Source: Loxodes magnus
Lineage: Eukaryota; Ciliophora; Karyorelictea; Loxodida; Loxodidae
Length of the DNA stretch: 64,000 bases
Direction of reading: 5' to 3'
Assembly (NCBI GenBank): GCA_946699065.1
Contig: CAMPDV010000200.1
Span: forward strand, 124,001 to 188,000
Part shown: piece by piece, positions 6,524-64,000 of the stretch
How the letters are laid out: each line of letters begins with the position of its first letter
How positions within the stretch are numbered: position 1 is the stretch's first letter
The notes under the pieces: model-generated
What the model was told of the DNA's origin: nothing
What the model saw: the letters and a program-made list of their open reading frames with translations, nothing else
Database searches by the model: none
Translations under genes and position numbers: made by a program

Positions 6524-9500
6524 ATGGATTACCCTTTCTTTATTAGGATTTTGATGATTTGCCTGTCTAAATGAAGCTTAGCTTTCGAAGTTTATGTAAC
6601 TACTCCTGAGATTTTAACTAAATTAGATGTTTCTTATTCTGATGGTAGTCTAGAAAATCCCTTTACATCCCTTACAGAAGCCATTTCCAAATTGGCTTTA
6701 GATTCTGACTCTTAAATCTGAATATCTCCACATAATCATTCTTGAAGTTGTTATCAACAAAAGTTTTGCGATTCTTGTGACTAATGCGAAATTCTACGTG
6801 GAGGTTAGACTAAGAAATCTACAAAAAAGCTAGTGATTCAAAAGTTTTATCTCTGCTCAAAGGATAGGAAATATTAGACGATGTGCCTAAACTACCTTAA
6901 AGAAGCTACTTTGTTTGTCTAAAGCCCTAATCTAAAGCTATAACTAGTAGAAGATACTTTAGTAATAAAAGATTTAGTCATAACAGGAGAGCAGATAGAG
7001 AATGGAAGGCATTGTGACAAGTAAAACTGTAGTGCTTTCATTTAAAATGTTTTGATTAGATCCTAAAACTCCTAGCTTAGTCTTGAAAATGTTGCTATAA
7101 AGAGCTTCATTTTATAGTATGATAATTACATATTAATAGATTCAGGGATAGCTCTGCTTAATAGATTATAGCTACTTGATAATATAGCATATAGTGCTAT
7201 TTTATTGATGAATAATAATGCAACTGTAAGCATAAATTAAAGCTTATTTCTAAGGAACTAAGCAACTGTTATTTAAAGTCTAGGCTAGCAATTATCTATT
7301 TGAGAGTCATAATTTAAGGGTAACTAAGGCTTTAAAGGAAGCTGCATAAATATAAAGGGCACTAGATTGATTATTGAAAACTCCTTATTCTAAGAGAATA
7401 GAGCTTAATGAATAGCTGGAGTCTTATTTGCTAGTTAATCTGACTGCTATTTCTATAATTCTGACTTTATCTAAAACATTGCAGAAAGCTGAGGGGCTGT
7501 GATAGAGTCAGAAGGAAGGTCTAACTATTCAATAATAAACTGCAGCTTTAAAAGAAACAAAGCAAATTATGGAACTATTGACTTTACTAATGACTTCATT
7601 AAAATAATTGATAACAGCACTTTTTATTTTAATGAAGCAGAATATGGGGGAGCTATTGGCTTCTACTTGACATAAGTAGGTGTTGTTTCTAACTCAATTT
7701 TTAGTGGGAATAATGCAATCTATTCAGGAGGGTGTGTTTAGGCAGATTCTTCTTGATGGGATTTACTAATTAATAGCTACTTTTTCTAAAACTAAGCGTA
7801 GTACAGAGCAGGCACCATTTTCTTAGGTTATCAATCTAGTCTTACATAGATTATTGGCTGCAATTTTGAAGAAAATGTAGCTTCTAAAGGAGGAGTTATT
7901 AATTTGTTTGACTTATCTGTAGTATATTCACTTGAAAACTGCATATTCAAACATAATAATGCAACTAGTGGTGGAGTCTTTAGCATGTAAGAAGGCTAAG
8001 ACGAAATACTTTTAACTAATTGCACTTTTATTGACAATTTTGCCCAAAATGGAGGCATTTTTTAGCTGTCTCAAATCATAGTAAGAATAGAAAAATCCCT
8101 GGCAATAGGAAATGAAGCATCTTATGGAGGGGTTCTTAAAGCAGAGTTTTAGTCCAATATAACAATTTAAAATTCAGAATTTTATGAGAATACTGCTTAA
8201 GAAGGGGCTGTTTTTCATATTTAGTAGTCTAATTTATAATTTTACAATATTTAGTGTGCAAACAACTACGCAAAAGACAAAGGAGCAATAGGATTAATGG
8301 AAGTACAAAGTTCCTTTAAATCAGAAAACTCAATCTTTACCAAAGGTATCACAAACGAAGGGTCATTTTTATATGCATAGAACTCTTAATTTCTCATATA
8401 CAACTCAATAATTTCCAATAATATAGCTAAGTCTACTGGAACTATTTACTTATAGACTTCCATTCATTAAAAGTAAAGCGAAATCAAGAACTCTGATATT
8501 TCCAATAATTTTGCTAAGACCTCTACTATCTTCATATACATGAGTTTCTTATCAATATCTAAGGTTAGCTTCCGTTATAATCAGGCCTATGCTCTTACTT
8601 CAGGAATTCTAATTTGAAGCTCTTCAACAGTCGTTGAAGAATCCTTCTTTAAAGGAGCTGCAGAAAATGCTTAATCTTTCATATTAATGGATTTTTAAGC
8701 TTAATTGAAAATAAATAAAACAGATTTCTACAATGGAAATTCCCCTGATTCTAGTGCTATTAAGCTATCTTCGTCTGAAATTAATTTACATTAAGTTAGC
8801 TTTTTAAATATGACCTATTAAAAGGGAAGTGTTATATCAGCTACCTGGTCAACCGTAAGAATCAGAAAAGTGACTTTCTAGTATTGCTTTTCAGAATAGC
8901 AAGGTTCAGTAGTTTATTTGAGAAAGTCTTATCTGCTAATAGAATGAAGCATTATAAGAAACTACGTACAAACTGCTTTGGCTGCTTTTGAGAGTTAACT
9001 TGTCATTGAAGATACGTAGTTTGTTGATGGCTCAAGCAAAGATTCTTTAGGATCTGCTGTTTATTCCTACAACTCAGAAATGAACATTTCATACTGCGTA
9101 TGTTCTGAGCAATACTCTAAATAAGGTTCTTGCTTCTTTATTTATAACGAAGAAGTAAGATATAAGTATATTATTAAGTATAGCTAGTTTAAATTTAATA
9201 TTGCAACTGAAGATGGCGGTGCTGGCTACTGCTATAACGCTAATATTAACTTCAACCATAATCAATTTATTAACAACTCAATTGAAGGGGAAAACTCCTT
9301 AGTTTCTAAAGGAGGTGCCCTAAGACTTATATGTGAGAAATAATAAATCTGCTAGTATAAAATAGAGCATAACATGTTCGAAAACAATACCATAACTAAT
9401 AATGTTAGTGAGGGAGGGGCTATTTCATTCTTAGGTACAGTACCTTAGTTTATTCCTGATCTAAAAAGCTAATAAATATGCTCATTATTTGCAAATAACT

Positions 9501-12100
9501 ATGCTTTTTATGGACAAAATATAGCATCTTTTCCTTACAAGCTAATAAACAACGATACTAATCTAGTGGGAGATGTTTTAGAGCATTGCTGAGAGGAGAG
9601 AAACAAGAGATATTTATTTTCAGTTTATCCTGGAGTTTAGATTACAGAAAAAAGAGTATATATAGTGGATAATTTTAATTAGGTGGTTAAAAGTGATTCT
9701 AATTCAGATGCCATTATTTTTTCTAGCGATACTGATTTGTAAGGAAGATTAAGAATAAAATCAAAGCAAGGAGAATTCTACATTTAAGACATTATCATAA
9801 AAAATAAGCCTTTAATGAAAGTTCACATTCATATCTAAACCAGCGCAATAGATAAAAAAAATCTGATTAGTGATTCGACTATAAGTGACAGTTTGGAAAT
9901 GGAAATTTTAATTAATTAGTGTCTTTAAGGGTCAATATTAGTAAATGGGAATTAATGCGATAATTGTTTATTTGGATTCTACTCTCTAAATATAAGTGAT
10001 AAAGTGTGCTAAGAATGTATGGAAGGAGCGAGGTGTCATGGTGGTAATTTAATTACAATGAAAAAAGGATATTGAAGAAGTGGGTTTGATACAAATATAA
10101 TACACAAATGTCCAAATCTTTAAGTATGTCTTGGGACATTTATCAATCAAAAATTTGTTGATAAATATCTTAATTTAAATGATCCCAATGAACGAGAGGA
10201 TATGAAAGCTAAAGTTAACTGAAAAGGAGACTGCTAAATTGGTCATAAAGGAGTTTTATGTGATGTTTGCGAATAAAATTGATCAAAAAATAGCTTAAAC
10301 AGATGCCAAGTGTGCTTAGATGAAAAAATATCAATTGGAATAGCTACAATAATTTTAATTCTCTTTGTACTTTATATCATATTTTTGGTATGAAGAACCC
10401 TTTAATCAGTACAGAAATCGGAAAACTATAATGGAGTTTTTTTCAAAATCCTTACTAATTACATGCAATTTGCATCACTTATAGGGAATTTTAACTTTAA
10501 GTGGCCTAGTTTGTTTAAGAGATATTTCCAAGTTTTTGAATCTTATGTAGTTATGACCTCAAATATCTTTAACTTCGACTGTATTTAATAATAAGGCGAA
10601 GAAAGATATTATAATAAAGTAATTGGAACTTTAATCGCTCCCTTTTGCATCTTAATATTTGCATTATTAATTTTACTAAGTTGGTCTCTAATAAAAAAAA
10701 GAAGATTTAACAAGCCTGTTTTTGTAACTATCTTGAGTATCTCATTCTTCCAGCTCTACTTCCAAATAGTTTTAATAACCTTAAGTTCATTCAGTTGCTA
10801 TGATATAACACAAAACGTTTCAGTACTAAATGCATACACTGATATAACATGCTGAAGAGGCAAGCATTAGTAGTTTGTAGTAAACTTAGCAATGCCTGGA
10901 TTGATCATATATGGAATCTTTGTTCCTCTTATTGTAAACATCTACCTATATAAGAGAAGGCATATTATAAAATCCCATTAAATTGAATCAAAGTTTGGAT
11001 TTTTAATAATAGGCTATAAAAGCTAATTTTACTACTGAGAGTTTGTAAAGAGCTACCAAAAATTTGCGATATCTTCCGTTTTCATTTTTTTCTAAAATAA
11101 ACCGACAATTCTACAATTTTGGGTCCTGTTTATGATACTGATAATATCACTTTGTCTATAGTTAAAGTACAAGCCATACATTAAGGAAGAACTAAACTAA
11201 CTAGAATTCTTTTGTCTAAGTATATCATCACTTATAGTATACATATCTATATACTTTGAAGTTGATTAGAAGCTTGTAGTAGTGGATATGATCTTATTCG
11301 TCATATTAGTATCAGTAAACTGTTGGTTCGTTTTTTACTGAATTAAGGGGTTAATTCTCTATTCGGGAAATCTAGTTTATAATCAAACAAGTTTGAAGAT
11401 TTACAAGATGCTGTGCCTCAGGAAAAAACTTCACTTAGACTAATTTATAGATCAGTGGGAAAAGTAGGAAAAGATGTATGAACAAAATGACTTTAAAGGG
11501 TAGAAGTTAATGTAACTAAAGAATAAAATCCAGCAACTGATTAATAGAAGATTTTCTAAATAAGCTTTAATTATGCCTTTAGCTTATGAACTAAGAGAGG
11601 AAAATAAACATACTAAGGAGCTAATTCAGAAATTAAAAAATAAACATATCATAAAGCCTTTGAAGTAGCTTGAATGATTGTTTCTGGCAAATAGTAGTCG
11701 TATTGATTTATTCAGATAAAACGCATCGAACTTGATATTTTCTTGAAAGGATTATTGGAATTAAAGAATTAAAAGCTTTTTAGATAAATTAAATGAATAT
11801 GAAAACTACTTTTTAGAGGATACTAATATATAGAAATAGAGTAAATAGCTATAAAGTTAAAAAGTTAAAAAGACTTATAAATTAGATCAACAATTCTCCT
11901 AAGAGTAGTGCGATTAAAAAAGCGATTTAATTTCTTTTGAAGAATATAAAGAAGAAGAAGATGAGCAGTCAGAAAGAATGTGAATTCTTGGAGACTCAGT
12001 AAATGAAAAAGAAAAATTGTACGAAATCTAAAGTAAAGATCAATCAGATAAGTAGCGATAGATTCAAGATAAATATATATTAACATTAAGTAAGCAATGA
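6524..12100 (+). CDS. giant parallel beta-helix / polytopic membrane protein (1858 aa)
   Basis: One unbroken frame of 1859 codons from ATG to the first of two adjacent TGA codons. About twenty internal TGA codons fall where Trp fits, for example KKGYWRSG. Residues 1-21 form a signal peptide. Roughly 200-1000 hold many imperfect repeats of GGA/GGV, Ile-rich strands and N-x-F-x-x-N-x-A elements, the pattern of right-handed parallel beta-helix repeats (Pmp-like) common in ciliate surface proteins. Next is a Cys-rich segment (around 1150-1270) with NQCDNCLFGFYS, CQEC and CDVCEQNW. Several membrane segments follow, from about 1280 to 1630, then a long charged Lys/Gln/Glu cytoplasmic tail. The family is widespread but functionally undefined. 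A surface receptor or adhesion role is inference. No intron was needed across 5.6 kb. Confidence 0.85.
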
Positions 12101-14027: not shown

Positions 14028-14796
14028 ATGGATATGTAAAACTATACTTATACTGCTTGTAAAAGAGAGGACTAGGTATATTATACAAAGGATTACGATA
14101 ATGTAATGTAAGATTGGTTCTCAATATTTGGGATAAGAATTAATACATTTGATTGAATTTCTTTTAATTATCTAATTTAAAAATCAAGCTTCATAAGAGA
14201 GATAAGGAATTTAATGCTAATATGATATTGAATATTCATATCATATAGATATGTAGTAATAAAATCCGTCTAATTAAAGTGAAGCTTAAAAATTGAAAAC
14301 ACGCTAAATGTAAATAATTCGAAATTTAAAGGAAAGCGTCTTTATTATATTAAGGTAAGAGAGTAAAAGGAAGGGAAGAGTAAATTTGCTTTATTCAGAA
14401 TTTCAAAATTGGATAATTATTATAAAAGACCTAAACTATGGAAAAAGAGTATATGGAGCTATAGATGCTGATGTTATTAATTTGTAAGTTTAATATTGAA
14501 ATATGTAAGTTGACGTAAAATTGAATATCTGTTTGTAAGAAAAGCAAAACATATTTAAGAATTAAGTCATAAAAAAGAAACCAAGTTATGACTTTAAATA
14601 GTTGGAAAGCAAATTAAGTGAAATGAATCTTATATGAACCTTCTTAGAAGTTTTATAGACTTGGCAGTCTTTTTTTAAAGAAACTACTTATAAATTTAGC
14701 AAAATTAAATAAAAATTAAGGAAGTTAAAAATTAGAGTTGAAAGATAAATGAATTAAAGTAGAAAGAAACTAAAAAGCGTTGAAATAGTTATTTAA
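14028..14796 (+). CDS. hypothetical protein with one 19-nt intron (249 aa)
   Basis: The proposed start is ATG 14028 (MDMQNYTYTACKRED). The frame changes at 14380-14398, where a GT..AG segment of 19 nt matching the local intron pattern restores a good frame reading KDLNYGKRVYGAIDADVINL. The spliced length is exactly 250 codons to TAA 14794-14796. I do not recognise the family. It is mixed alpha/beta-looking, then basic and helical at the C-terminus (KIKQKLRKLKIRVERQMNQ). There is no in-frame TGA between the domain and the downstream Sec61 gene 39 bp away, and the frame would run straight into it, so a TAA must end this protein. Start, function and the intron are moderately sure at best. Confidence 0.5.
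14380..14398 (+). other. tentative 19-nt intron
   Basis: The segment GTAAATTTGCTTTATTCAG has the GTAA..TTCAG form of the firmer introns in this window and joins two frames that each look coding. The host gene is unrecognised, so this one is less secure than those in ZFAND2, Dsc3 or the RND gene. Confidence 0.5.
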
Positions 14797-14835
14797 ACTG
14801 TTGCTTTATATAACAAATTTTTATTTTTGTTAAAA

Positions 14836-16263
14836 ATGTCAGAGAAAGTCAGGTTCATAACCTTAATAAGGCCTGCACTGTGTATTCTACCTGAAGTAGA
14901 CACACCTGATCGCAAAATTTCATTCAGGAATAAGATTTTATGGACTGCAATTACTCTTTTCATCTTTCTTGTTTGCTGCTAAATACCTCTCTACGGTATT
15001 CATACTTAGTCTACTGGAGATCCTTTTTACTGGATGAGAGTTATTCTTGCAAGCAATCGTGGTACTCTTATGGAACTCGGAATTAGTCCAATTGTCACAT
15101 CAGGAATGGTTATGCAGTTACTTGCTGGAAGCAAAATAATAGATGTAGATTAAACTCTTAAAGAAGACAGAGCGCTTTTCAACGGTGCCTAGAAACTATT
15201 TGGTATGCTCATTACACTTGGAGAAGCTGTAGCATACGTAATGAGTGGAATGTACGGAGATGTCAACGTAATTGGTGCTGGCACTGCATTATTGATAATT
15301 TCACAATTGTTTGTTGCTGGAATCATCGTCATTATTTTGGATGAGTTCTTGCAAAAAGGCTATGGACTTGGTAGCGGCATTTCACTATTTATAGCTACTA
15401 ATATTTGTGAAAATATTGTATGGAGAGCGTTTAGCCCAACTACAATAAGTACAGGCAGAGGAACTGAGTTCGAAGGCGCAGTTCTCGCACTTTTCCACTT
15501 ATTAGTTGTGAGACCAAATAAAGCAACAGCAATTTAGGAAGCCTTTTATAGATCACACGCTCCAAATATTACAAACCTTTTGGCCACAGTTCTAGTGTTT
15601 CTAATAGTAATTTACTTCCAGGGATTCAAAGTTGATTTACCAGTAAGATCCTAAAAAGTTAGGGGATAATAAGGAACGTATCCAATTAGACTTTTCTACA
15701 CTTCTAACATTCCCATCATTCTACAAACTGCTCTCGTTTCCAATTTATATTTCTTCAGCTAAATTCTTTACAAGCGTTACAAGACTAACTTCTTAATCAA
15801 CTTGTTAGGGCAATGGCAAGATATTGATATGTCAGGCTAGAGTGTTCCAGTTGGAGGGTTGGCCTACTACATAAGTCCGCCCAGAGAACTGGCTGAGGTG
15901 TTTGCTGATCCTTTCCATGCCCTATTCTATATATCATTCGTTCTAATTTCATGTGCTCTCTTCTCAAAAACATGGATCGAAGTTTCCGGTTCTTCGGCTA
16001 AAGATGTAGCCAAATAATTGAGAGATTAACAAATGTTCCTTCACGGGCATAGACAACATTCCATGGTCAAAGAACTAAATCGTTATATTCCAAACGCAGC
16101 GGCTTTTGGTGGAATGTGTATCGGAATGCTTACAATCATTGCAGATTTCATGGGAGCTATTGGAAGTGGTACAGGAATTCTTCTAGCAGTGACAATTATT
16201 TACTAGTATTTCGAAGCTGCGAGCAAAGAGAAGTACGAGAGTATGGGACTATTTACCCTATGA
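14836..16263 (+). CDS. SEC61A: Sec61 alpha subunit, protein-conducting channel of the ER (475 aa)
   Basis: Sec61-alpha is the pore of the ER translocon, passing or inserting nascent secretory and membrane proteins. The product is 475 aa, the same as the family norm (about 476), in a single frame without introns. It starts [21 protein letters not shown]. Ten hydrophobic segments follow. Family landmarks include the plug and TM2 region ([20 protein letters not shown]), [20 protein letters not shown], and [17 protein letters not shown] with basic cytosolic loops. The C-terminus, [10 protein letters not shown] then TGA, aligns with the usual short SMG.LLF ending, which shows TGA acting as stop here. 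Internal TAA/TAG codons are read as Gln. The ATG lies 39 bp after the proposed TAA of the upstream gene. Confidence 0.97.
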
Positions 16264-16693
16264 TTACAATTACTTTTAATTTTAAACTTTCAGAAATAAA
16301 CTAAACTCTTTGATGATTCTACCTTCATCTATACCCATTAACATACACTTTAACTTTGTAATCTACTATCTACTGTTTTCTCTTCTAAGTAGCTAGAACA
16401 TATAAAAATCAGGCTATAAAATAAGTATTATAATTTTGATTCCTTTTGATGTTAATAAGAAAGGGAATATTAATTTGTATTTCAAGATTAATTATAAAGC
16501 ATATGTAAAACAAACTGGTATAGATCCACCAAATAATCAATGACTTATTCTTTAAACATTTAATCAGTTATTGACTACTTAATGTATGATTACTTACTAG
16601 CATACTATTTGTATGCAGTCGAAGGAGGAATGATATGTTTAACTTTGATTTGAATTTGGAGTTCGAAAATTAAAAATTAAAGAAATATGTCAG
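16264..16693. other. convergent intergenic spacer (430 bp)
   Basis: It lies between the 3' end of Sec61 (plus) and of the ZFAND2 gene (minus), so it contains both 3' ends. It is A/T-rich. No gene or terminator hairpin is evident. Confidence 0.5.
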
Positions 16694-18092: not shown

Positions 18093-19484
<1,392 letters not shown>

Positions 19485-26167: not shown

Positions 26168-28450
26168 TCAGTACTCAAAGCTGATGTTTTCATTTGAAGC
26201 CCGAGTTGCATAATAAATGGATCTATTAAGCTTCATGCCCATTTTCTTTTCAACTGCACGTTTTGTTAGATCATGCCTGGTAATAATACCAACAACATCT
26301 CCATTTTTATTTATAATCGGTAGAGACCTTAAACCAGTAGTTCTAAACAGAGTATAAGCTTTAGCTAGACCTGTAATTTCGAAGACTGCTAAAGCTGACT
26401 AATCTGTATCGTTCTTCAGATTAATCGAGCACTCCATATCTTCAATTGTCAAGTTTAAATCTTCTAAAGTTGGAAAAAGAGGATAAATATGAGCTATTTC
26501 TGATCAGCTAAGGGTGTTTTATTCCTTTTCAATAAACTATTTCTTTTATAAAATAAGGATGAGTTAATATCGTCGTATCATACCTATGAACTTAGTGCTT
26601 TCTTCTATTACTGGAAAGCAGTTATGGGAGTAATTTGTAAGAATCTACATTAGATTCTAAACTCTAATGATCATTGGAAGTGTGATTACAGGAGAGGCCA
26701 TTATATCTCTTACTTCTACTAATTAATACTCTCTAGGCTCTAAGTGATCTAAAAAAGGGTAGCCTTTTAAAGGGATTAATGTTTCATACAATCCCTTATT
26801 GAAAAGGTTTCCCACCTATCTAGCTGCTATTAAAGTTAGCATAATAGGTAGGCCATATTGTATATTACCAGTTGCTTCAATGAGCATTACAGTCAAACTT
26901 ATAGTGTTTCTGGACATACCACCAAGAAGAGCAGTTGCTCCTATTAGAGCATAAACTCCTCTTTCTAAATTTTTATTAAATATCCCATCTAGAAATTTTC
27001 CAACCATCCTGCCAAAAGCCGCTCCAGCATATAAATTTGGAACAAAAAGACCACCTGGAACACCAATACCACTGGTTCAGCAAGCAAGAGCATAATAAAC
27101 ACCAAAAAAGCTAATAAGACTGGAATATGGATAGTCTCACATTGTGTCGCATTATTCTGGACTCTTATGATGAAAAAGTGATTTGATTCCATCTTCACTA
27201 GTATCGAAGAAAAGATTTGCCGTAGGACTAAAGTAACCATCTTTACAGTAGAACTAAATCTATTCTCCTACATCATCATAGCATTCTTCCTATCTTTTCT
27301 TATCCTTTTCATCTTCTTTATAATACTTTTCAGTGCACTCATCTATATAATAAGGTATAATGAAACTTAGAGAGGAAACTACTAAAGCTACAAAAATAAC
27401 CTCAAAGAAACGACGGCATTTTGTTGCTACGTATTTTTGCCTAAATCTTTGGAATAATGAGTTAGTCTTGTTGAAAATAGCTCCGAATATACCCCCACAT
27501 ACTCCAATTAAAATAAAGAAGGAAATCTCTCAAATATTGTAATTACTAACTTCATCAAAGTCACCAAAAGAAAGTAAACCAGGAGAACTTAATTTGCCTC
27601 AAGAAACTGAATCATCAATAGCTGAAATGAAGAAATTAACAGTCGTTGTTCCTATAATTGCAGCGAAAAATGTCTTTCACATAAGCTCGACGTTTAAATG
27701 AGAAACTCCCTCTTCTAATGCGAATAATACACCACCAATAGGAGCTCCAAAAGCAGTAGCAATACCAGAAGCAGCACCTGCAGCCATAAATTCAGATTTA
27801 ACTTTATCGTTCCTAAAGAGCTGAACGATAGGATTATTAAAGTCAAACATAAAAGTTTATTTAGAAACTGTACCTATTTCAGCGCCAATAGCAGAACCAA
27901 TATGAACCATTGGTCCTTCTTTACCAACAGGAAGTCCACCAGAAATACTGAAAATTAGTCCAATTGATTTGCTAATCATCGTCTTTATATTTGTAATTCC
28001 TGGTACTTAAATACCATTCAGAACACTTTTAATTTCAGGAATTCCTGAACTAGCAGACTAAGGGCAGAAAAAAGTAGTGATAATACCAGCTATTGATACT
28101 ATCGCAGTACTAGTAAGTGTGAAATACAAAAAGCAAGGAAGGAATTACCCATCAGTTTTCTCAATAATATCATCAGCTAAATTAAACTTAGTATCACTAA
28201 TAGCTCTTGACCCTAAGTCAATCAAAAACCCAACACCTCCTGTAATTAGCCCTATAAAAAAAAGTAATATCCAACTATAAAAATCCACTTTCTTTCACTA
28301 TTACGCTGTAACTTTCAAAATGTAATTAAGATAAGATCTGCTATATGTAATATTATAGTTAGTAGACTCAAAAGACTTCTTTTCTATTCATGTAGGTAAC
28401 AAATTTAAAGAAGATACACTAGTAGCTACCTATATTTGAAGATTTTCCAT
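26168..28450 (-). CDS. CLC-family chloride channel with CBS pair (760 aa)
   Basis: CLC proteins are dimeric chloride channels or chloride/proton exchangers. All selectivity motifs are present in order: SSGIPEIK (usual GSGIPE), [16 protein letters not shown] with the gating glutamate, [15 protein letters not shown], and [20 protein letters not shown] cytosolic pair of CBS domains follows ([35 protein letters not shown]). At the position aligned with the proton glutamate of exchangers such as CLC-7 (RRDTEKRDF) this protein has RNDKVKSEF, so Val. This favours a passive channel, by inference. Several internal TGA codons read as Trp (ELMWKTFF, NIWEISFF, ACWTSGIG). It is a single frame of 761 codons, with stop TGA 26170-26168 just after ISFEY. 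The cytosolic loop between membrane halves is unusually rich in Glu/Lys/Asp. Confidence 0.96.
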
Positions 28451-45211: not shown

Positions 45212-46246
45212 ATGAGTGATATAATAAAGCACGAAAAAATCAAGAAGAGTAGACTTGAAGATGAAATGTCATCAGCAACTATAACGGACATAATGCCTGA
45301 GAAAACAGGTTGTTCTACAACTGTTACAATAGAAGTGAGATTTGCTGATGGATAGGTGAGGAAAGGAGATGTGGATGTGAAGAAGGATTAAATTTCTGAT
45401 TTAAAGAATATAATTTTCAAAAACGAACTAGTTGAGGGTATGGAATGCTAACTTATCTATCTTGGAAAATTTCTTAATGATTAAGTAAAAATTTCTGAGC
45501 TTAGTAATAATTTCACGTTCAGATGGTATTGAAGAAGGATTGTGTATGCATGGCAGAATAAAGTAAAAGCCTCCTCCGTAGGATAATGAGCCAGTAATTT
45601 TTTAAAACAGATTAAGAAGAAAAAAGATTAAGAAGGTTTCAATAAGTTGGTGAATTCAGGTTTTTCGCTTGAAGAAATTGAGTTAATGCGGTTGTAGTTT
45701 CACGGAAATAGATAATATAATTCAGATTCTGAAAGAGCATAAAGAGAGCAGGAATGACTAGATGGAAACTAAAATGTAGCTAACTTAAGAGATATTAACT
45801 TCAATATAAGCGACTAAAGTAACTAGAGTTCGAATAATCAGCATTTAGATCAAGCAAGACAGCTAAGAGAAGATTCTTTAGAAATAAAATACTGCATTTC
45901 AGGCTGTTTTGTCGGCCTTTTCTTTTCACTTTTTGCAGTTTTTTTCGTAAGTTTGACAAATTTAGTTTTTTTGCTGTCATTTAAACTACAGTTGGAAGAA
46001 AGGAATTCTGATGGGTATCATTACTTCAATAATGGTTTTGCTCATTACGTGTCATTTTCTTCTAACTTAATGTTAATTCATTTATTATTTAGTAGTTTAC
46101 TGTTCTTGTCTGCACTTATGAACTAATGCATCCCCTGTCTTGCATGATGCAATAGCTTTAAGTTTTGAATTGTTTTCTTGTCAGCTTTTCTTTTAAACCC
46201 CCAACTAACCAAAATAATAGCAGCAGCTGTATAAGAACTGACCTGA
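45212..46246 (+). CDS. DSC3: Dsc E3 ligase complex subunit 3-like protein (332 aa)
   Basis: Dsc3/TMUB-type proteins carry an N-terminal ubiquitin-like fold and C-terminal membrane helices. In fungi Dsc3 is part of the Golgi/endosome Dsc ubiquitin ligase that clears or activates membrane proteins. Here residues 30-110 form the ubiquitin-like domain (TVTIEVRFADGQVRKGDVDV, QLIYLGKFLNDQVKISELNG). The hallmark DUF2407 C-terminal motif EGFNKLVNSGFSLEEIELMR, then LQFHG and REQEWLDGN, is clear. Two or three membrane segments follow. Two introns, 19 nt (45504-45522) and 17 nt (45594-45610), are needed; removing both yields ISELNGIEEGLCMHGRIK, a proper ubiquitin-like C-terminal strand, and exactly 333 codons to TGA 46244-46246. 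A TAA four codons earlier is an alternative stop. Confidence 0.9.
45504..45522 (+). other. 19-nt intron in Dsc3
   Basis: GTAATAATTTCACGTTCAG. Splicing joins KISEL to NGIEEGLCMHG within the ubiquitin-like domain. Confidence 0.9.
45594..45610 (+). other. 17-nt intron in Dsc3
   Basis: GTAATTTTTTAAAACAG. Splicing joins PPPQDNEP to IKKKKDQEGFNKL and enters the DUF2407 motif in frame. Confidence 0.9.
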
Positions 46247-49900: not shown

Positions 49901-52354
49901 TTTCTTTTTTAAAATCTACAAAACACTAAAATGATTAGGAGAGAGCATATGATCAAGAAATGAATACAGAGTAACGAAACTTTCATCAGTTAAATAAAGG
50001 ATAAAGCATTACATCATTTATTGAAGCAGTACTAGGACAATTAATACCTGTTTAAACTGTTTGATTTAGATGAAAGTTAGAAGCAACGGATAGAGTAGAA
50101 GTTTCTTAAATATCAAAACTTATAAAGAGAATTACAGGAAAATAGTCTTGAGCAAGCTCTCATAACTGATTCATTCCATGAAAGTGTATTTATTCAAGAC
50201 TTCAATAAGAAAACTTAAAATTAACAAAATCACTAGAATAATGAAGACCTCGCTATTTTAGACTCAGCAGATTACAAGACTTTTAAGGAAAACAAAATAT
50301 ACATTAAATAGGTTCTAAAAAGCCTCTGAGAATATCCAAACAGGACATACCAAAGCTGCCTCAATTTCATTTACTTCTATAATGAAAATAAAAGTGAGAT
50401 GAACGTGATTGAAAATATATACCTTCTTAAATAATATTTCAAGCATATTAGTAATAAGAACAAATACAGGTGAAATATGTAAATATTAGATATCTTAAGA
50501 AGCGCCTTTCATTAGTTCTATACTTTATATCCTAACATGATAAACTTTGTGAAATATACGCTTGATTTTCCTGTTATCTCATATTAACCAATATGGACTA
50601 CGGAGTAAGAAGGACGAGGAATTAGTTTAGATAATGAAAGATTGACATTCCATGGCAACAAATTCTGGAGCTCATTAGATTTCTTCCAATTCTATCAAAA
50701 TAAAGAGAAAACACGGTTGCTATATTAAAGGATAGAAGATTAGATTTAATAAGAAAAGGGTAAGTCTGGCAGTTGATAGAGTGAGGTACAATTCGTGGAG
50801 ATATTAAGAGAGGAATTAATCCAAAGTAGATTCATAGAATGCGCTTATCTGGTTAAAAAGTGGATTGATAATAAACTAAACCAATAATTTAGCTTAAAAG
50901 CGATTATCTAAACAATAGAACTCAGCGAACTCATATGAGATATAAAAGAGATTTGAAAACAGTAATAGTGAAGTTCTGAGACTTTATTTGATTTTATCTG
51001 CTCAAAGAAAAAGTGATTGGATTTGAAGAAGTAGGATAAGAACTTGGAAACGATATTTTAAAACTAAAGCTAAAAATTGGAATGGAGAGATGAATATTAC
51101 GTGATATATATCTAATAGTTGCTTTAAAACCTGGAAAATGGGTTCTAAAATTTTAGGATCAAGAACGTAGAAAATAGTAACTTATTGGAATTAGAAGAGG
51201 AAATAGGTAAATTAAGAAAAATCTTAGAATGTAGTAAGAATGAGTAGCTTTAAAGCCATTTACCATTTTCAGTAAGAATTACAAAGAATGACAAAGAAAA
51301 CTGTCAATAGATGAAGAAAGGAGATACAATTCCAAATTAGGTTTCAAAACAGAAAGAAACGAATATTAATAAGGAAGTGAAAGCTTGAGTAAAAGGAAAT
51401 TGAATTGAAGATTGCAAAGGAGAAGATCATAATAGCTCTGGTTTGAATAAGGGAATAAGAATAAATAAAAATGATACTAAAATCAATTAAGATAGAAAAA
51501 TAAAGAAGACTCTTAAACTAAGCTTTAGCACTACATAGTGCTAATAACAAGGAGAAAGTAATTAGAATATAATTACTATTCAAGATACAGATGAAGAAAA
51601 TCTGGAAGAACTAAACTTAATTGAAAGAAGGATTTAAAGCCAAAACAGTTCAAATTTGAATCAGCAAATTTTTAATACACTTAGCAAATAATCTGGATCG
51701 GATAAAACCTAATAGGGGGAATAAAGGAATTAAGAGGATAAATCTTAATTATTTAAAGTAGTAAAAATCATATAAAGATACTAGAACGACAAAATTTAAA
51801 GTTAATAAGATAGTTAATAGAATAAAAGCATAAAGTAGCTTAGTATAAGATTAGAGTAGAATATAAAGAAACAAAAATAAGAAAGCAAAAACGAAAAAAA
51901 TTTCGATCAAAATTATCCACTAAAATTTCCTTAAGCCCAAGGAGAAGCAAATAAAGAGACTATTAACAGAAATTTTATTTACATAGACTGCGATTCAGAT
52001 GAGGAGATTAACTAAAATTTAGATCGTCAGATGCCAAGAGAAATGGAAAAAGAATGTAAGAAGCAAAAGAATAAAATAGGAGGAGATAAAAGCATATAAA
52101 AAAAATATCCTTTAAATGCAGATTATGAGAGTAAACTCCAATGATTTAAGATAGAAATATCTTTACTAAAAACCAAGCAGTATCAAGTAGAACATTAAAA
52201 GCCACTATTTGATTATTTGAAATCCTTTCTATTAGAAACAGCAAAATAAGGAAGAAACTAGAAGGAAGTACTTAATAATATTGGGATAGAGGAGAGAGAC
52301 TTAGCAGAAATATCTAAGCATTATTCTAATATTGGTAAATTTCTGGTTTAATGA
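46979..52354 (+). CDS. large unrecognised protein with helix-turn-helix-like segments (1791 aa)
   Basis: A single intronless frame of exactly 1,792 codons runs from ATG 46979 (MKNIQHSLRQRSIKWVSEKQ) to TGA 52352-52354. I do not recognise the family. Around residues 360-460 two consecutive helix-turn-helix-like segments stand out: WKASGGSTQEAIKSYGIDIS followed by a Lys-rich stretch (KEKKKKGKHR), then REQIVREMLKEGRNIQEISQ and AVQLTPIGLLGWIYGH. These resemble homeodomain-like or transposase-type DNA-binding helices. The middle (about 500-1300) is long and mostly alpha-helical. The last 450 residues are low-complexity Gln/Lys/Glu/Asn with acidic patches (QDTDEENLEELN, YIDCDSDEEINQ). No catalytic triad, zinc-finger or ATPase motif was seen. 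It could be a DNA-binding or domesticated factor; this is inference. Confidence 0.8.
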
Positions 52355-52383
52355 TTTTAATTCATTTCATGCTTATTAACTAA

Positions 52384-53352
52384 ATGCATCGTTTTTCGTG
52401 TCTTAAAAATTACTCAAGCATTTAAAGTTAAATCTAGTAAGCAGGCGTGGTGATTATTACTAAGCCACATAATGATACTCTATATGATTATTAAACGTTG
52501 CTATGTAAAAGGAAAGATAGGGGATCTTATCCAGGAGAGTGGGTATTTCCTGGTGGTAAAATTGAAGAATAGGATATTATTAGATAGCAAGCAGGAATCG
52601 ATTTTGAAATGACTCAAAGTACTTAGCTGTGGTAAGAACTCAATCATACCAATCTCAAACTTACAGCTATAAGAGAAACTCTTGAGGAAACTAATTTGTT
52701 ATGTGAAAGGCATGAAATTAAGGACAGAGCTGGATAGATTGCTTCGCTTGTGTTAAGTAAGAAAATTACTGCGCAAGATTTAGTGAAGTCAATAGATTTC
52801 ACGAGCTTGAATTTTATGGCTCGGTATATAACTCCTGAATATAAAAAAAGAAGGTATGATACAAGCTTCTATCTTTATACCTCATAAAGAGATGCCTTAA
52901 TTGTTGATTTGAATACAGAGGAAATGACTAAGTTTGAGTGGAAAACTCCATTGCAGTGACTACAAGAGTATTTATAAAATTACATTGTGATTCCTCCTCC
53001 TCTCATCCATTTGCTTTACTAGATGGCTCATTATAATACCTTTAAGAGCTTAAAAAAAGCAGCCATAGATAACGAAAGCGTTTTGAAATCAGTTCCAATG
53101 ATGGCTTAGAAGAAAGAAGCCTTTGATAGCAAATATTCTCAGTACAGTATAAATACAATATTTCCTGGTGATAAAAGACATCAATTTCCTGCTCCAGGCG
53201 ATTAGAAGGGCGTTCATGAATTTTTATCTGGGGATAACTGTTTCGACATTAAGATAAGTGACAACATTAAAGTACTATAGAACTTTAGTAACTTCAAGGT
53301 ACTTATAAAGAACGATGTAGGTGCCTAGAAGTTGGAGTTAGTGAAGAGATGA
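52384..53352 (+). CDS. NUDT19: NUDT19-like Nudix hydrolase (322 aa)
   Basis: Nudix enzymes cleave nucleoside diphosphates linked to another moiety. NUDT19 proteins act on CoA and acyl-CoA in mitochondria or peroxisomes. The Nudix box is present but split: GEWVFPGGKIEE, an insertion of about 34 residues, then TAIRETLEETNLL with the REx2EE core. A long insertion at this place is characteristic of NUDT19. Upstream is GVVIITKPHNDTL, with the core strand LLCKRKDRGSYPG. The C-terminal half includes YDTSFYLYTSQRDALI, EMTKFEWKTPLQW and IPPPLIHLLYQM. No C-terminal peroxisomal tripeptide is seen. The N-terminus (MHRFSCLKNY) could be a short mitochondrial presequence. It is a single frame of 323 codons with stop TGA then TAA. 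The ATG lies only 29 bp after the upstream gene's TGA. Confidence 0.92.
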
Positions 53353-54411: not shown

Positions 54412-55296
54412 TCAGTTAATTTTCTTGTTATTGCTGTTAAATTGAAAATTATAAAAACTCGCATTTTTGAAATACTCGCTTGGAGTGGCTGGGAACTAGA
54501 AGTAGCTTTAACTGCGGGGTGTCATGTATATCATACTTGATGGAGTTGGAATCTGTAATGAATTTCCGTTTAATGGAGAAAGAATCATTGCTAGTTGTGA
54601 GTTTGGAGATATTAGATCAAATTAGAGTGGTTTCTGTTATATAGGTTGGATGTTATTTTCTGGCTCAATCTCAGGTTTTGGTGTAACGATTATAAATTCT
54701 TCTTCATTTTTAATTTCAAAATTTTTAAATGCTCTAGATGCTGAATCTATATTTAATAATCCATCAGATCTATTCTCATTCTCTTTCTCAATCTAACCTT
54801 ATTTTTCCTCTTCATTTTTCTCTATTTTAACAATCTGTTGCTCCATTCCAGTTTTATCCATAAAATTGAATTACAAATCTTATACAGTTTACTATTTCTT
54901 TTGTTATCTTGCCTCTTTCATTTTAAGTTTTTTCTCTTAAATTCTAATTTCTTTTCTTATCCTTCTTTCTATTATCCTCTTCTAAGCATTGTATTTATTT
55001 TTTGCGTCCATTGGAGATCTACCGGGTAGGTACACACTAATTGCTTTCCATTTATTTCCTAATATTTTTTGTTTCTCGAATAAGATTTTGTATTCTTCTT
55101 CAGTCCATGCTTCCTTATTTACTTTATTGTCAAGATGATTCAGTCATCTTTCTCTGCACATCTTACTAGTTCTATCTCTTATACCGAATTTTTCATACAA
55201 ATTCCTCGCTATAAACTTTCACTTATTTCCATATATCTCATAAAGCTTCAATATTGCTTAATCCTCCTTTTCAGTCCAAGGATTTCTTTTTTCCAT
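54412..55296 (-). CDS. R2R3-type Myb DNA-binding protein (294 aa)
   Basis: Two Myb repeats lie at the very N-terminus. Repeat one begins RNPWTEKEDQAILKLYEIYG and ends CRERWLNHLDNKV (Trp coded by TGA). Repeat two begins KEAWTEEEYKILFEKQK and continues GNKWKAISVYLPGRSPMDAK followed by NKY. The spaced tryptophans and the SKMCRERW recognition helix are those of R2R3 Myb factors, which bind DNA as transcription or cell-cycle regulators. A basic helical linker follows, then a Glu/Gln-rich acidic region. The Pro/Ser/Thr-rich tail has repeated S/TP sites (SPNSQLAMILSPLNG, PATPSEYF), plausible kinase targets and an activation domain. It is a single frame of 295 codons with stop TGA 54414-54412. Target genes are unknown. 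Confidence 0.93.
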
Positions 55297-58900: not shown

Positions 58901-60187
58901 GATATCAATAATTCTTAAAAGAGAGAAACTAGAAACCATCAGAAACCTAAAAGACGAAAAATCAAAGACCCAAGAATTCGTAGTAGATATAAAATGGCTA
59001 AGCTAAGGAAAATATTAAAGCTAATGCTAGAGTAGAAACCAATTAGAAGGCAAAGTAGAATAATGTTGTTAAAAAGAAATCAAAATCACCATAGAAGTAG
59101 CAATAGTAAAGACATACCTAAGTGATTCCTTAAGAACATATAGAGAAAATTTAGAAAGATCGAATAAATACTTAGAAAGCAGCAATTACATCTTAGACAT
59201 TTTCAACAACAGAGTCAGCAAAAAAATGTACAGTAATACAAGAATTCAATATAGGCAAGTGGAAAAAATCCAAAAAGGCACCTCATTAGTGCATTGAGCT
59301 ACTCATAAAAATCTAAAATTAAATTCAGCAACCTAATTTTAAGCTTGTCTGCAAGATGAGGTTGAGCGCCTTACTGAAGTTAATCAACGGTATATATGAA
59401 GACAAGCTTCAAACTACTAATGAAGCTCAGCAAAAAAGTCACTTATTTGAGTACTTATATGACAATTTACTGGTAAGTTCAATTTACTTGTAGCATAAAT
59501 ATGGAATGAAGAACATTTCAGATAACAAATACACTGAAACCATCTATGCTGTTATGTTTTACATCACTCAGTCAAAACGAGTAACGAACTTTCTAAAGTT
59601 CCTTAACATTACACCTGAATACAGCTTTTCGTAGGAAGAACTGAACTTCTATATGCAAGCTAACGAATATTTGAAAACATGTGCATTAGGATTTAACATT
59701 GCGAACGATGAAGGAGCGGCAATTTAGTGAATTTCTTTAGAACGAGCATAACACTGCATTTAATACTTCTTTCAAGATAAACTTAATGCATTAGAGACTG
59801 AAGAACTAAATAAAGAGGTATTTTATAATTCAGATTGAAAAATAAGTAGATAGAAAGTTAAAAGGAATTCAGAGGATTGACAAGGAAAATTTCTTAGAAA
59901 ACTGTATCTAATATTTCCAAAAAGTGAGGCGAAAGATATACTAGAAAGTAAAGGATATGCTCCCTCAGAAAGATTAGCTTGATTTAAATCTTAGTATTTC
60001 ACTTGAAAACTTCTATACTAAAGAAGAAATTCTAACTGTCATCAGTAAAATGTAGTTAGAAGTATCTTAAGAGAAATTTGAGTTTTATTGGAATGAGAAA
60101 AAAGAAGGGGAGGAAGATTGTATTAATCTAGAGGCGTTTTTAGTGATGTTAATAAATCTTAAGATATTCGATCTAACTGTGGAATGA
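55929..60187 (+). CDS. axonemal dynein light chain domain-containing protein (1408 aa)
   Basis: A coiled-coil protein with a motif typical of the axonemal dynein light chain domain: SFEELVRQVKVQCFDRGDLI at about residue 430, matching the ELIRQVT..C.ERG.LL signature of DNALI1/p28, followed by a long helix. The AXDND1 family has this domain in a large protein, so an inner-arm or other axonemal role is likely. The N-terminal 300 residues are disordered and Ser/Gln-rich. Two helical regions follow the signature, then a low-complexity Lys/Gln linker around 950-1050. The folded helical C-terminus includes LSALLKLINGIYEDKLQ and EEDCINLEAFLVML. Introns of 16 nt at 58610-58625 and 59818-59833 are required; the spliced length is exactly 1,409 codons, ending at TGA 60185-60187. 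AXDND1 orthology is likely but not certain. Confidence 0.8.
58610..58625 (+). other. 16-nt intron
   Basis: GTAAGTCATAATGCAG. Removal joins YLEKKNKL to NDVLEDGDFVKTALNLRSSL and keeps the frame for the following 400 codons. Confidence 0.88.
59818..59833 (+). other. 16-nt intron
   Basis: GTATTTTATAATTCAG. Removal joins LETEELNKE to IEKQVDRKLKGIQ and leads to the TGA stop in frame. Confidence 0.88.
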
Positions 60188-60636
60188 CATTTCTTTTATT
60201 TGATTATAATTCCATAAATAACTGCCTGAAGTAATAGAAAGTGTAATATTGTATTTATACATATTCAATCTATTAACTATTTTGATTTCATGAAAAGAAG
60301 AACCAAATTTTTTATTTGCTAGGATCACATTTCCAAAAACAGATGTTCACAGTCTTTAATAAAGACTTGACAGTATCTTCCAATATGCTCTATTAAGTTA
60401 GCTAACTTTTCTCCTTCATATTATCAATCAAAAAGTTACTGTATTCACTCTATTCTATAAAATGCTTTACTTAACGTTTGTTTATTTAAATCTGGTATGA
60501 TAATAAGATGAAACGTATTTACTAGTTTTGATATGAATTTACTAATTAAAATAGACTTTTTAAGATTGTATGTACCATTGGTTAGTTTGTTTTATCAGAT
60601 TGAAGTTCAACGTAGAAATTTTAATAAACTAAAATA
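60188..60636. other. AT-rich spacer (450 bp)
   Basis: It lies between two plus-strand genes and should carry the SPFH gene promoter. Nothing else is seen. Confidence 0.5.
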
Positions 60637-61605
60637 ATGTCATTAGGCAAAGTCGCGGAGATAGAGATGGCAGAGTCAAATTTCCCTAAACATTAAAAAG
60701 CTGAACATGATGATGAGAGAAAAGTGGAGATTAAAGAAGTGCAGTATGAAGGAATGCATGATTAAGGTGATGGATTGGGAAGTTGTTACAAGTGTCTTCT
60801 AAAATGTTGTGGTGAGATAGCTTGTAAGATATGCTGTATACCTTGTGCGTGGAGAAAACTTGGACCAGTTAAGATAATTTAAGAAGGTTTTGTTGGCATT
60901 TTAACGGAATATGGAGCTTATTCGAAGGTGTAAATGCCTGGTTTATATGTTTTCAATCCTTGCATACATAAATACATAGATATCGACCTAAGAGTAGTTA
61001 CATAAGATGTAGAAGCTCAAAACTTGGTAACTGGAGACAGTGTCACTATTAAAATCGATGCTGTTGTTTACTGGAGAATTTTCAATCCAGTTCTTGCTGC
61101 TTTCTAGGTTAATAATATACTCAATGCAATGTCTAACTTAACTCAAGGAACAATGAAGAATGTGATAGCAGGAAATAAACTATAGGATATTTTAAGTGGA
61201 ACCGTTAATCTTGATGCATAACTTAAAAATATTATCGATAAGAAATCTGATCCATGGGGAGTTGATGTAATTGGAGTTGATATTAAAATGATTTGACTTC
61301 CTGAATCTATGTAGAGAATGATGGCTATCACAGCTGAATCTTAAAAAGAAAGAGAAGCAAAAGTAATTCAAGCAGAAGGTAACAGAGACGCCGCTGTTAT
61401 AATGAAGCAGGCTGCTGATGAAATGAACAAAAATCCACTTTCCTTATAACTCCAATATTTCGAAGTATTGAAAGAGATAGCTACTGAGAAAAAAAGTACA
61501 TTTGTTTTACCTGATTCTATTTGGAACATGAGTGCTGCATTTACGCCTTCTAAAGAAACCTTAGAAAAATTGAACTTTCAACCATAGTATCAAAAGTTTG
61601 ATTGA
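60637..61605 (+). CDS. stomatin/SPFH-domain membrane protein (322 aa)
   Basis: SPFH proteins oligomerise on the inner face of membranes and organise lipid microdomains or regulate channels. After an acidic N-terminus come a Cys-rich stretch (CYKCLLKCCGEIACKICCIP), probably palmitoylated and membrane-inserted in place of the usual hairpin, and the SPFH core. The core runs through IIQEGFVGILTEYGAYSKVQ, MPGLYVFNP, DLRVVTQDVEAQNLVTGDSV, VVYWRIFNP, GVDVIGVDIKMIWLPESMQR (Trp coded by TGA) and ITAESQKEREAKVIQAEGNR. The last is the conserved helix after the domain. It is most like the slipin/stomatin branch. The frame is 323 codons, ending at TGA 61603-61605 after NFQPQYQKFD. If that TGA were read as Trp, a short hydrophobic tail would follow, so the C-terminus has slight doubt. 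Confidence 0.93.
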
Positions 61606-61978
61606 TTCATCGAATACTTAATACATCAGTTATATTCATTTTTATTCATATTGCTAAAGAAACTGATATATATATAAAGTACCACTATAAAAAGCTAATT
61701 TAAGTTAAATCAAAACTATTCTTGCATTATTTAATCAATTGAAAGTAAAATGCTAAATTATAGTATAGGGATTTTATATATGGTAGATGAAAGGAGACAT
61801 AGCAAATAGATAGCACTATAATTAAGTATAACTTGATATTTCTTGTAATCGAATGTCAAAGTTATGAAAATACCCAGCATGGGTAGTAATGTAAGCATAA
61901 CATTTAATACGTTATATGTAGGTTAATTCGCTTATATAGTTAAAAGCATTTTATTAGAAATTTGTTAAAGGATAAAAG
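61606..61978. other. convergent spacer (about 370 bp)
   Basis: It lies between the SPFH gene end (plus) and the Cys-rich protein end (minus). If TAA 61981-61979 is not the stop of the latter, its frame would continue to TGA 61858-61856 inside this spacer. Confidence 0.5.
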
Positions 61979-62809
61979 TTAAAACTGAGCATAATAAAAT
62001 TCTTTCTAGTCAACCTTTGCTTTATTTTCAATGCTGATCATGATATTCTTTAGTATATTCTGACTACAGTCTAGCTTATATTTAAAAATTATGGCAACTG
62101 TAATGAAAATGAGAATTAGAAATCAAAGGTTTATGGTACTGATGTTGTCATTGGGATGTTAACCTTTAATTTCTGTTTGCTAAGATGAAGAAGGTATGCT
62201 AGTCAAGACTATTGCCTTAGTAATTCCATTACAATAAATTTCTTGACAATATGCATAGCAACTGTTGTTAATACCATAGCCAAGCTCAATACAGACTTTT
62301 CTACAATTATCTAGACAGATTTCTTTCACTTACGTCTAGTTTTCTAGCATCATTTTTCTAATTTGGTTATAATCAAGATTTGCCGATGTTTATATCTAAG
62401 ACTTCAGCTTGAATTCGGTTTTGTTGTCGTTAAGCATTTTCTAACTGAATTAAGAAATGCACTAATATTTGCACTCTGGATCACTATTCAATATGCAGCT
62501 TTGCAGACATTCCTCAGATGATAATGCGGTTTCTTCTTCTAAATCCATTAAGTAAAAAAATCTTCGAATGTCCTATAGAGGAATTTCCTTTAATCTGTAG
62601 TTGTCAGTCATTTTAGATGGACGCTAGTCAATATTGCATAAAATTATGCAGCAGGTCTCTTATAGTTCCAGAGGTACATTATAATGACAAATTTCCTGAC
62701 ATCTGTTGTTCGTTTATCTTCCAGATTAATTCACCAAGCTATGAAATTAAGGAGACTGAGTATTTATCTGGAAAATACTTGAAATAATAAGCAAAATAAA
62801 GTATCTCAT
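61979..62809 (-). CDS. secreted Cys-rich single-pass membrane protein (276 aa)
   Basis: The family is not recognised. A clear signal peptide opens it (MRYFILLIISSIFQINTQ). An extracellular part follows with regularly spaced cysteines in three clusters: CQEICHYNVPLELQETCCII then LC, the set ECLQSC..CKYQC, and CLDNCRKVCIELGYGINNSC then YAYCQEIYC. This suggests several disulphide-bonded modules of the CxxxC type. One membrane helix (LWFLILIFITVAIIFKYKL) and a short basic cytoplasmic tail follow. The frame is 277 codons to TAA 61981-61979. An in-frame TGA 41 codons further on is the alternative stop but gives a noncoding-looking tail. It is probably a cell-surface protein. No partner is known. 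Confidence 0.75.
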
Positions 62810-63299
62810 TTTATTTAATTAGGCTGTTTTACAGAATCTAATGCAATTCTATATCATTTATTTAGAGATAAGATGAAAGTATATTTTATTGGTTTCTTTA
62901 AATATGAGCGTTTGATTTATGGATGCAAGGATGCTTATCAACGGATATTTATGAATATAGTAAGTGAGGATATGGAAATGAGAGATGTGTAGTGAGGTTT
63001 TTAGTGGAAGGAGTGGAAATGTTTGAAAGTAATATAGTGATAGTTGCTTGAAGTTCTGTTTATATATATAATGGTAGTAAAACATCTAGCTGATATTCCC
63101 ATTATTTGCATTAACATTCATAATCTTTAATGAAAAATCATGTTTAATAAGGTTAGCTAATTGAGTATTATATGTGAAGTATGTTTAGAAATTGTGACTA
63201 GATTATGCGTATTTTAGCAAAGTGAATATAAAATATGATGACGTAATAAAATGATGATTATAACTAAATTATTAGTGTGACTTATAATATTTTACATTA
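62810..63299. other. AT-rich spacer (490 bp)
   Basis: It lies between two minus-strand genes, holding the promoter of the Cys-rich protein and the 3' end of the nuclease. Short A/T runs only. Confidence 0.5.
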
Positions 63300-64000
63300 T
63301 TAAGTGCTTAATTTGAATTTTCCACAAATTGAAAAATGATCGCTAGGAAAACATTTATTTGGACAGCATGGGAAGTTCCATAGAATGCTTTCTGTTGTCA
63401 TTTCGAGTACCTTTGTCAGTTTTAATTTTTGAAGTTCGTAGAAAATGAAATCCATTGTGCCTATTACACGATCTTAGTAATGAGTTACTTTTGGTTCTCC
63501 TGTATCTCCTTCATTCTTGCTATTTCTGGCATATGCACTTTTGAAGCTTAACTAATGTGATATTATACTTTAGTTATTTCCATCATTTTTGAACTTTATT
63601 CTGAACGTTGATTAGTCTTGATCTAGGACTATTTAAATGCTTCCCAGCATATTTCTTCACTTTCTATCATAGAAATTGAGTGCCTTAACTTTAGGTTTTA
63701 CTCATTTTTTTGTAGTCTCAGAGAGTTCCCTTTTATTACATAAACTTCTGTTACTTATCTTTTCTGCTGTGAGATATTCAAGTTACAAACTTTTCTATAC
63801 TACAAATGAGTAAAGCGAACTATTGGGTATGAAGTTAAAATCTCCAGTCAGAATAACTTCACTGATGCTATGCTTTTATTTAATAATGTCTATAGTCTTG
63901 AGTAAGGAGTATAGTTAAGCTAGTTAAATTTCTCCTCTTTTTAGATTGAAAAGTAGATGTGTAGTAACTATCATGATATTTACAGAGAAGAAGTTGAGTA
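63300..64000 (-). CDS. ANGEL/CCR4-type endonuclease-exonuclease-phosphatase, C-terminal part (partial)
   Basis: The frame enters from beyond the window edge, so the N-terminus is missing. The visible 232 residues match the second half of the ANGEL branch of CCR4-type nucleases. They include VTTHLLFNLKRGEIQLAQLY, the catalytic VILTGDFNFIPNSSLYSF, TMDFIFYE, and the final catalytic FPSDHFSICGKF. ANGEL proteins act on RNA ends; ANGEL2, for example, is a 2',3'-cyclic phosphatase, and others bind the cap-binding factor eIF4E. The specific activity here is not known. A charged insertion of about 100 residues lies between the two catalytic motifs, as in other family members. It ends at TAA TAA (63302-63300, then 63299-63297), and the next in-frame TGA is about 50 codons on with noncoding-like sequence. 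Confidence 0.92.

Follow-up and report, generated by a model that had tools for sequence, protein, structure and literature searches.

Codon Meanings in the Window

The window considered here is a stretch of 64,000 nucleotides of the karyorelict ciliate Loxodes magnus (assembly GCA_946699065.1, contig CAMPDV010000200.1, positions 124,001 to 188,000), in which genes for Sec61 alpha, a CLC chloride channel/antiporter, a stomatin-like protein, a Myb protein and a PTEN-like phosphatase can be recognized (Table 1), all of them containing codons that the standard code reads as stops. The genetic code of L. magnus is already known: it has been published for this organism as NCBI table 27, where UAA and UAG encode glutamine (Gln) and UGA is either tryptophan (Trp) or stop (PMC11441545). 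The window is almost certainly written in this karyorelict code, with its ambiguous UGA, which in at least one gene family apparently takes a third meaning, selenocysteine (Sec). The original prediction, made from the sequence alone, held that a karyorelict-type code hides these genes from standard annotation, and this matches the published table. That standard annotation misses most genes in L. magnus DNA is the main practical message of the code.

No meaning was assumed for the three codons: TAA, TAG and TGA were all masked as X before the homology searches, and the regions to be searched were picked by self-trained codon statistics that ignore them. The Pfam scans of the window covered three frames of the selected strand in the selected regions. 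Masked in this way, the proteins still matched SecY (2e-69, plus the plug domain), Voltage_CLC (5e-80, plus CBS), Band_7 (3e-32) and Myb (1e-17); weaker matches were obtained to Dsc3_C (1e-5), DSPc (1e-6, 28.6 bits for a cut-off of 33.5) and NUDIX (4e-4, 20.8 bits for a cut-off of 21.1). Alignments with PDB entries were obtained for the masked Sec61, CLC, stomatin, Myb and PTEN proteins, the last with an E-value of 4e-47 and a significant alignment confined to residues 75-269 of the query. The claim that all three codons are sense stands, and homology to Sec61, CLC, stomatin, PTEN and Myb survives the masking. Under the standard code, no stop-to-stop stretch exceeds 196 codons, whereas the longest one reaches 1302 codons with TAA and TAG as sense. 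Stop-free length alone was not accepted as proof, given that frames in AT-rich DNA (29% GC) grow longer once TAA is a sense codon.

Codon meanings were read from one alignment per gene, using the five window genes named above together with thioredoxin reductase (TrxR) and eRF1 from elsewhere in the genome. The source for these two, and for the transfer RNA (tRNA) and SepSecS searches described below, was a genome of 705,730,643 bases in 7843 contigs; the macronuclear (MAC) assembly of L. magnus has been reported at 706 Mbp (PMC11441545). The query rows of the alignments were consistent with the DNA in all seven genes. The homologue has Gln at 18 of 48 TAA columns (two gap columns dropped) and at 8 of 30 TAG columns (three dropped), hence at 26 of the 78 pooled columns against a background of 2.2% (p 6e-24), and it has Trp at 5 of 12 TGA columns (two in CLC, one in Myb, two in TrxR) against a background of 0.5% (p 4e-9); both backgrounds come from 2398 columns at other codons. 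As controls from the same alignments, ordinary codons gave Gln at 14 of 37 CAA/CAG columns and Trp at 13 of 18 TGG columns. The similarity of the Gln rates at TAA/TAG and at CAA/CAG indicates that TAA and TAG act as real Gln codons. For the window genes alone, the counts are 14 of 43 TAA/TAG columns for Gln (four gaps dropped) and 3 of 9 TGA columns for Trp. When BLOSUM62 scores were summed, Q led at TAA (42.5 bits, ahead of E at 16.5) and at TAG (13.0 bits, ahead of E at 4.5), and W led at TGA (19.0 bits, ahead of Y at -1.5). The codon meanings at TAA, TAG and TGA are observed in the alignments.

These results bear out the prediction that TAA and TAG fall where Gln fits, as in Sec61, where Gln is found at 7 of the 13 masked columns (13 TAA/TAG in the aligned part). 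The parallel claim that TGA falls where Trp fits holds for the pooled columns; Sec61 has TAA and TAG only and no internal TGA. In CLC, the two TGAs predicted at ELMWKTFF and ACWTSGIG (27679-27677 and 27079-27077) both correspond to Trp in the three homologues shown, the other four lying on A, Q, G and L; in Myb, TGA 55146-55144 falls on a conserved Trp. The remaining non-Trp columns are K in stomatin, R in Myb and C in TrxR. The Myb column on R adjoins a one-residue insert that is itself Trp, and the TrxR column on C is the selenocysteine site, which is Cys in that PDB entry.

These seven non-Trp columns out of twelve could also be expected if the genes were pseudogenes, decaying under a nearly standard code and interrupted by chance stops. 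However, Sec61, eRF1, SepSecS and TrxR hold 13 to 26 in-frame TAA/TAG each and yet remain highly similar to their counterparts in other eukaryotes, Gln is about as common at TAA/TAG as at CAA/CAG, and a tRNA with the anticodon UUA is present in many copies (see below). Decay has virtually no chance of being the explanation.

Another possibility is a code of the Tetrahymena/Paramecium type (NCBI table 6), in which TAA and TAG are Gln, TGA is only a stop, and frames containing TGA are artefacts. TGA is indeed rare in the most conserved genes and absent from the interior of Sec61 and of both eRF1 copies. Against this, TGA lies on conserved Trp in CLC (two), Myb (one) and TrxR (two). Moreover, the original prediction had pointed to about twenty in-frame TGAs in the gene starting at 6524, which it termed beta-helix, and this count was confirmed (17 before 11675, 19 up to 11950). 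Codon statistics trained outside this gene score its own frame best of the six on both sides of 10 of the 19 TGAs, so the coding signal runs across these ten; in the two other forward frames, the corresponding figures are 0 out of 28 TGAs and 3 out of 55. The tRNA-Trp described below, of a kind linked to UGA reading (PMC13092985), also speaks against a stop-only TGA, and this code appears extremely improbable for the window.

Transfer RNAs, Release Factor and Gene Ends

The genome was searched with a pattern for tRNAs with the anticodons UUA, CUA, CCA and UCA, which gave 128 places; among the matches listed, all but two are one tRNA-Trp(CCA) that occurs in tandem arrays. In eight copies at one locus (L010, called by ARAGORN), positions 27 and 43 are unpaired (A27.C43), which leaves an anticodon stem of 4 bp. 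C43 is present in all but two of the tRNA-Trp pattern places among the matches listed, the two with another base being L009, which has no tRNA call, and L053. The arrays lie at about 482-491 kb of contig C67 and about 155-169 kb of contig C148, with a unit length of about 187 nt in the first and 241 nt in the second. A tRNA-Trp with a 4-bp stem has been linked to the reading of UGA and has already been identified in Loxodes (PMC13092985). The candidate reader of UGA would then be the ordinary tRNA-Trp(CCA) with its shortened anticodon stem. No tRNA-Trp with the anticodon UCA was found by the pattern search of the genome, although such a pattern can miss unusual tRNAs. The UCA matches, one sequence in all 24 places, were rejected: at the three loci examined, they proved to be the opposite strand of tRNA-Thr(UGU). 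This tRNA-Thr forms an array at about 99-123 kb of contig C336 (unit about 2634 nt) and has further copies on other contigs.

For Gln, a pattern based on the D arm matched 191 places, versus one in a reversed control, with the anticodon UUA in nearly all the matches listed, and the three places that were fetched all fold as tRNA. This UUA tRNA equals a human tRNA-Gln at 60 of 72 positions, versus 43 for a human tRNA-Glu and 34-44 for four other tRNAs of the same genome. It forms a tandem array at about 232-238 kb of contig C214 (unit about 275 nt) and has many dispersed copies. A stricter search for UUA and CUA gave six places; of the four examined, one proved to be tRNA-Arg(UCU) matched out of register, and no tRNA lies at the match in the other three. 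Wider patterns were swamped by apparent Lys(UUU) and Arg(UCU) tRNAs. Among the tRNAs called for by the original prediction, the one for Gln would be the many-copy UUA tRNA, and the candidate for Trp is the CCA tRNA rather than one with UCA. UAG may be read by the UUA tRNA through wobble.

Two eRF1 genes were found (L063 and L064), after another locus, L062, with the best match to an eRF1 domain, had first been presumed to be the release factor. Both copies carry RA-TAA-NIKS (that is, RAQNIKS with the Q written TAA), FLCENTF and Ala70. The eRF1 of Loxodes striatus is identical in these three features, and its motif has been described as UGA-only (PMC4695839). The stop TGA is closely followed by two more in-frame TGAs in L063 and by one more in L064.

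A mechanism assembled from published work and from inference might run as follows. The many-copy tRNA-Gln(UUA) would decode UAA directly and UAG probably via wobble. A UGA well inside the message would be read as Trp by the ordinary tRNA-Trp(CCA), with its A.C mismatch at 27:43 and its 4-bp anticodon stem. Close to the poly(A) tail, this tRNA-Trp would lose out to an eRF1 that has been altered to recognize UGA only; UGA would thus be the sole stop, UAA and UAG never terminating. In at least one gene family, UGA would take its third meaning, selenocysteine, inserted under the direction of a selenocysteine insertion sequence (SECIS). The poly(A) component is taken from the published account, according to which UGA is the sole stop in L. 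magnus and is Trp when far from the poly(A) tail (PMC11441545).

Gene ends were assessed by looking for the next in-frame TGA 3' of the last aligned residue, in a small sample of genes. This TGA lies 7 codons past the last aligned residue in Sec61 and 26 codons past it in CLC, with no TAA or TAG between. Both eRF1 copies and all five full-length TrxR copies likewise reach a TGA before any TAA or TAG once the conserved end is passed, in TrxR at the homologous end. The G+C content drops after the ends of Sec61, CLC, stomatin and Myb. TGA is therefore both Trp and stop, the stop role fitting the examined gene ends of this small sample. The three codons had been treated alike in the original prediction; all three are indeed sense, but TGA is both Trp and stop, while only sense uses of TAA and TAG were seen.

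Several observations weigh against this reading of the code. The TGA columns are few, and most of them lie on residues other than Trp in the homologue used. A CUA tRNA was not identified among the matches listed in the pattern searches of the genome. In stomatin, TGA comes 28 codons past the last aligned residue, with one TAG between, six codons before it; in Myb, whose end is loosely anchored, it comes 188 codons past, with twelve TAA/TAG between. Past 18149, the next 169 codons of the unspliced PTEN-like frame contain no TGA, and a TGA at 18129 is reached only by assuming that a 17-nt GT..AG stretch (18164-18148) is removed as an intron. Seven of nine candidate GT..AG stretches give a nearby TGA; 18164-18148 was chosen for its length of 17 nt, the published mode for introns (PMC11441545). 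In favour of this inferred and unproven intron, TAA was set aside as the PTEN-like stop. Since the stomatin, Myb and PTEN-like ends are ambiguous, the case for UGA as the sole stop draws chiefly on the published account, from which it is taken that UAA and UAG never terminate (PMC11441545). Among the few ends sampled, no TAA or TAG end was established.

These ends bear on a code of the Condylostoma type (NCBI table 28), in which each of the three codons has a sense meaning within genes and can terminate as well. Such a code would account for the sense use of all three codons in the alignments, for the TAG six codons before TGA in stomatin and for the unspliced PTEN-like frame, in which a TAA coincides with the fall in composition and is followed by a long run free of TGA. 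However, past the conserved ends of Sec61, CLC, eRF1 and TrxR, a TGA comes before any TAA or TAG, the assumed 17-nt intron (one of several candidates) takes the PTEN-like frame to a TGA, the eRF1 motif is the Loxodes one, which has been described as UGA-only (PMC4695839), and UGA is the sole stop in the code published for L. magnus (PMC11441545). A Condylostoma-type code is thus highly unlikely here, and the karyorelict code is preferred.

In the parts of the published descriptions that were available, no difference was found between the window and the karyorelict table 27 of L. magnus (PMC11441545) and Parduczia sp. (PMC4967479), with the same UAA/UAG as Gln and UGA as Trp or stop. Condylostoma magnum shares the three sense codons, a context-dependent stop and a UGA that also encodes selenocysteine (PMC4967479), as well as a tRNA-Trp with a 4-bp stem (PMC13092985); it differs in that UAA and UAG also terminate there (PMC4967479). 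Blastocrithidia nonstop likewise has three sense codons, a tRNA-Trp(CCA) with a 4-bp stem for UGA and one codon doubling as stop, but there UAR is Glu and the stop is UAA (PMC12153298). The claim that only Condylostoma and karyorelicts use such a code was consequently too narrow: Blastocrithidia does so too, and all three stop codons have been reported as sense in Amoebophrya ex Karlodinium (PMC6394959).

UGA in the TrxR Frames

The genome contains components for selenocysteine. Three places score above the Rfam cut-off for tRNA-Sec (63.5-73.9 bits), each of which is also identified as tRNA-Sec(UCA) by ARAGORN; the remaining 50 matches are under the cut-off, and one that was examined is a tRNA-Ser. 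SepSecS is present (E 1.9e-104) and carries in-frame TGA, TAG and TAA, which argues against a contaminant. The SepSecS family was also above the cut-off in 3 of 14 control genomes, including Bacillus subtilis, and is not specific when taken alone.

Ten matches to the TrxR family were found, of which five (L065-L069) were read to the C-terminus, while L070 had no gene in the printed frame. Of these five full-length copies, L065 and L067 share 99.7% identity and may represent a single gene. Each of the five has GC-TGA-G-TGA at its end, with the first TGA at the place of the catalytic selenocysteine and the stop TGA two codons on; an extra in-frame TGA lies three codons past the stop in each of them. 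There are two to four internal TGA sites per copy, two of which, 407 and 397 codons before the Sec codon, are common to all five and correspond to Trp in TrxR2 (PDB 1zdl, aligned with L066). L069 has four internal TGAs, all Trp candidates, and no TGG. Very probably, then, UGA is Trp (at two to four internal sites), Sec (at the last codon but one) and stop within one TrxR frame in all five full-length copies.

A GUGA lies 40-42 nt 3' of the Sec codon in all five copies and is followed in four of them by a hairpin, in which two pairs are preserved through changes on both sides. Its folding energies are just 1.1-2.1 standard deviations better than those of shuffled sequences, and no Rfam match for SECIS was obtained up to E 10. 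The hairpin is a candidate SECIS, and SECIS-driven insertion of selenocysteine would be the corresponding mechanism. Because the far UGAs would have to escape a 3' Sec signal, the rule that separates Trp from Sec would have to depend on the position near the end of the message. A comparable use of one codon for two amino acids per message occurs in Euplotes, where UGA is both Cys and Sec in one gene and the 3' one is Sec; Euplotes differs in having Cys instead of Trp and in not using UGA as a stop. A position rule is already known for mammalian TR1 (PMC3737529), and a UGA 'triality' has been named for Condylostoma magnum and Parduczia sp. (PMC4967479). No report of such a triality in Loxodes was found in the literature searched, with subscription papers, supplements and a 2022 karyorelict paper beyond the reach of the search, and the main text of the L. 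magnus paper makes no mention of selenocysteine (PMC11441545).

The gene finder published for L. magnus does not accept a UGA in the 21 nt that precede the stop (PMC11441545), so that the TrxR proteins would, by inference, be cut at the selenocysteine. More generally, gene models in which Trp and stop are the only options for UGA will miss selenocysteine residues. The TrxR paralogues offer a natural test case for one codon with three meanings per message, with Sec and stop two codons apart.

Features of the Window and eRF1 Copies

The features are collected in Table 1. Among the families named in the original prediction, Sec61, PTEN, CLC, Myb and Dsc3 were matched and NUDIX fell just under its cut-off, but RND and ANGEL were not recovered: the Pfam scans of the selected strands and regions gave no match to either, and ANGEL and others may have been missed there.

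Table 1. Protein-coding features identified in the window (w, window positions) and eRF1 copies found elsewhere in the genome.
Feature	Location	Strand	Remarks
Beta-helix-like membrane protein gene	w 6524..11677	+	17 in-frame TGA before 11675, next at 11675; TAA/TAG also numerous; homology does not fix the 3' end
Sec61 alpha	w 14836..16263	+	E 8.7e-216 to Sec61 alpha isoform 1 (8b6l); stop TGA 16261-16263
PTEN-like phosphatase	w 18127..19310	-	TAA/TAG inside; stop TGA 18129-18127 only with inferred intron; 5' end not fixed
CLC chloride channel/antiporter with CBS domains	w 26168..28249	-	Six sense TGA; stop TGA 26170-26168; 5' end not fixed
Dsc3 C-terminal domain	w 45635..45958	+	PF13373, E 1.3e-5, 25.8 bits (cut-off 25)
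NUDIX-domain gene	w 52300..53352	+	PF00293, E 4.1e-4, 20.8 bits (cut-off 21.1); apparent stop TGA 53350-53352
Myb two-repeat gene	w 54412..55296	-	Sense TGA 55221-55219 and 55146-55144; apparent stop TGA 54414-54412
Stomatin-like Band 7 protein	w 60637..61605	+	Sense TGA 61294-61296 (Lys in stomatin); stop TGA 61603-61605
eRF1 copies L063 and L064	contig C196, about 35 kb apart		20 and 21 TAA/TAG; no internal TGA; stop TGA

The beta-helix-like gene has no Pfam family above the cut-off. Its coding signal is weak near both ends, so that the extent of the gene is less certain than its core. The NUDIX-domain gene gave no PDB match.

The minus strand between 38286 and 45699 holds a frame of 1302 codons without TGA, plus 796 more codons in the same frame, with strong coding statistics up to 44326. 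The stretches of this frame that were scanned gave no Pfam or PDB match. The gene predicted as RND, whose stretch likewise gave no PDB match, may be located in this frame. The first 6000 nucleotides of the window (1-6000) differ in composition, with a GC content of 22% and a weak coding signal, as compared with about 30% GC in the rest of the window.

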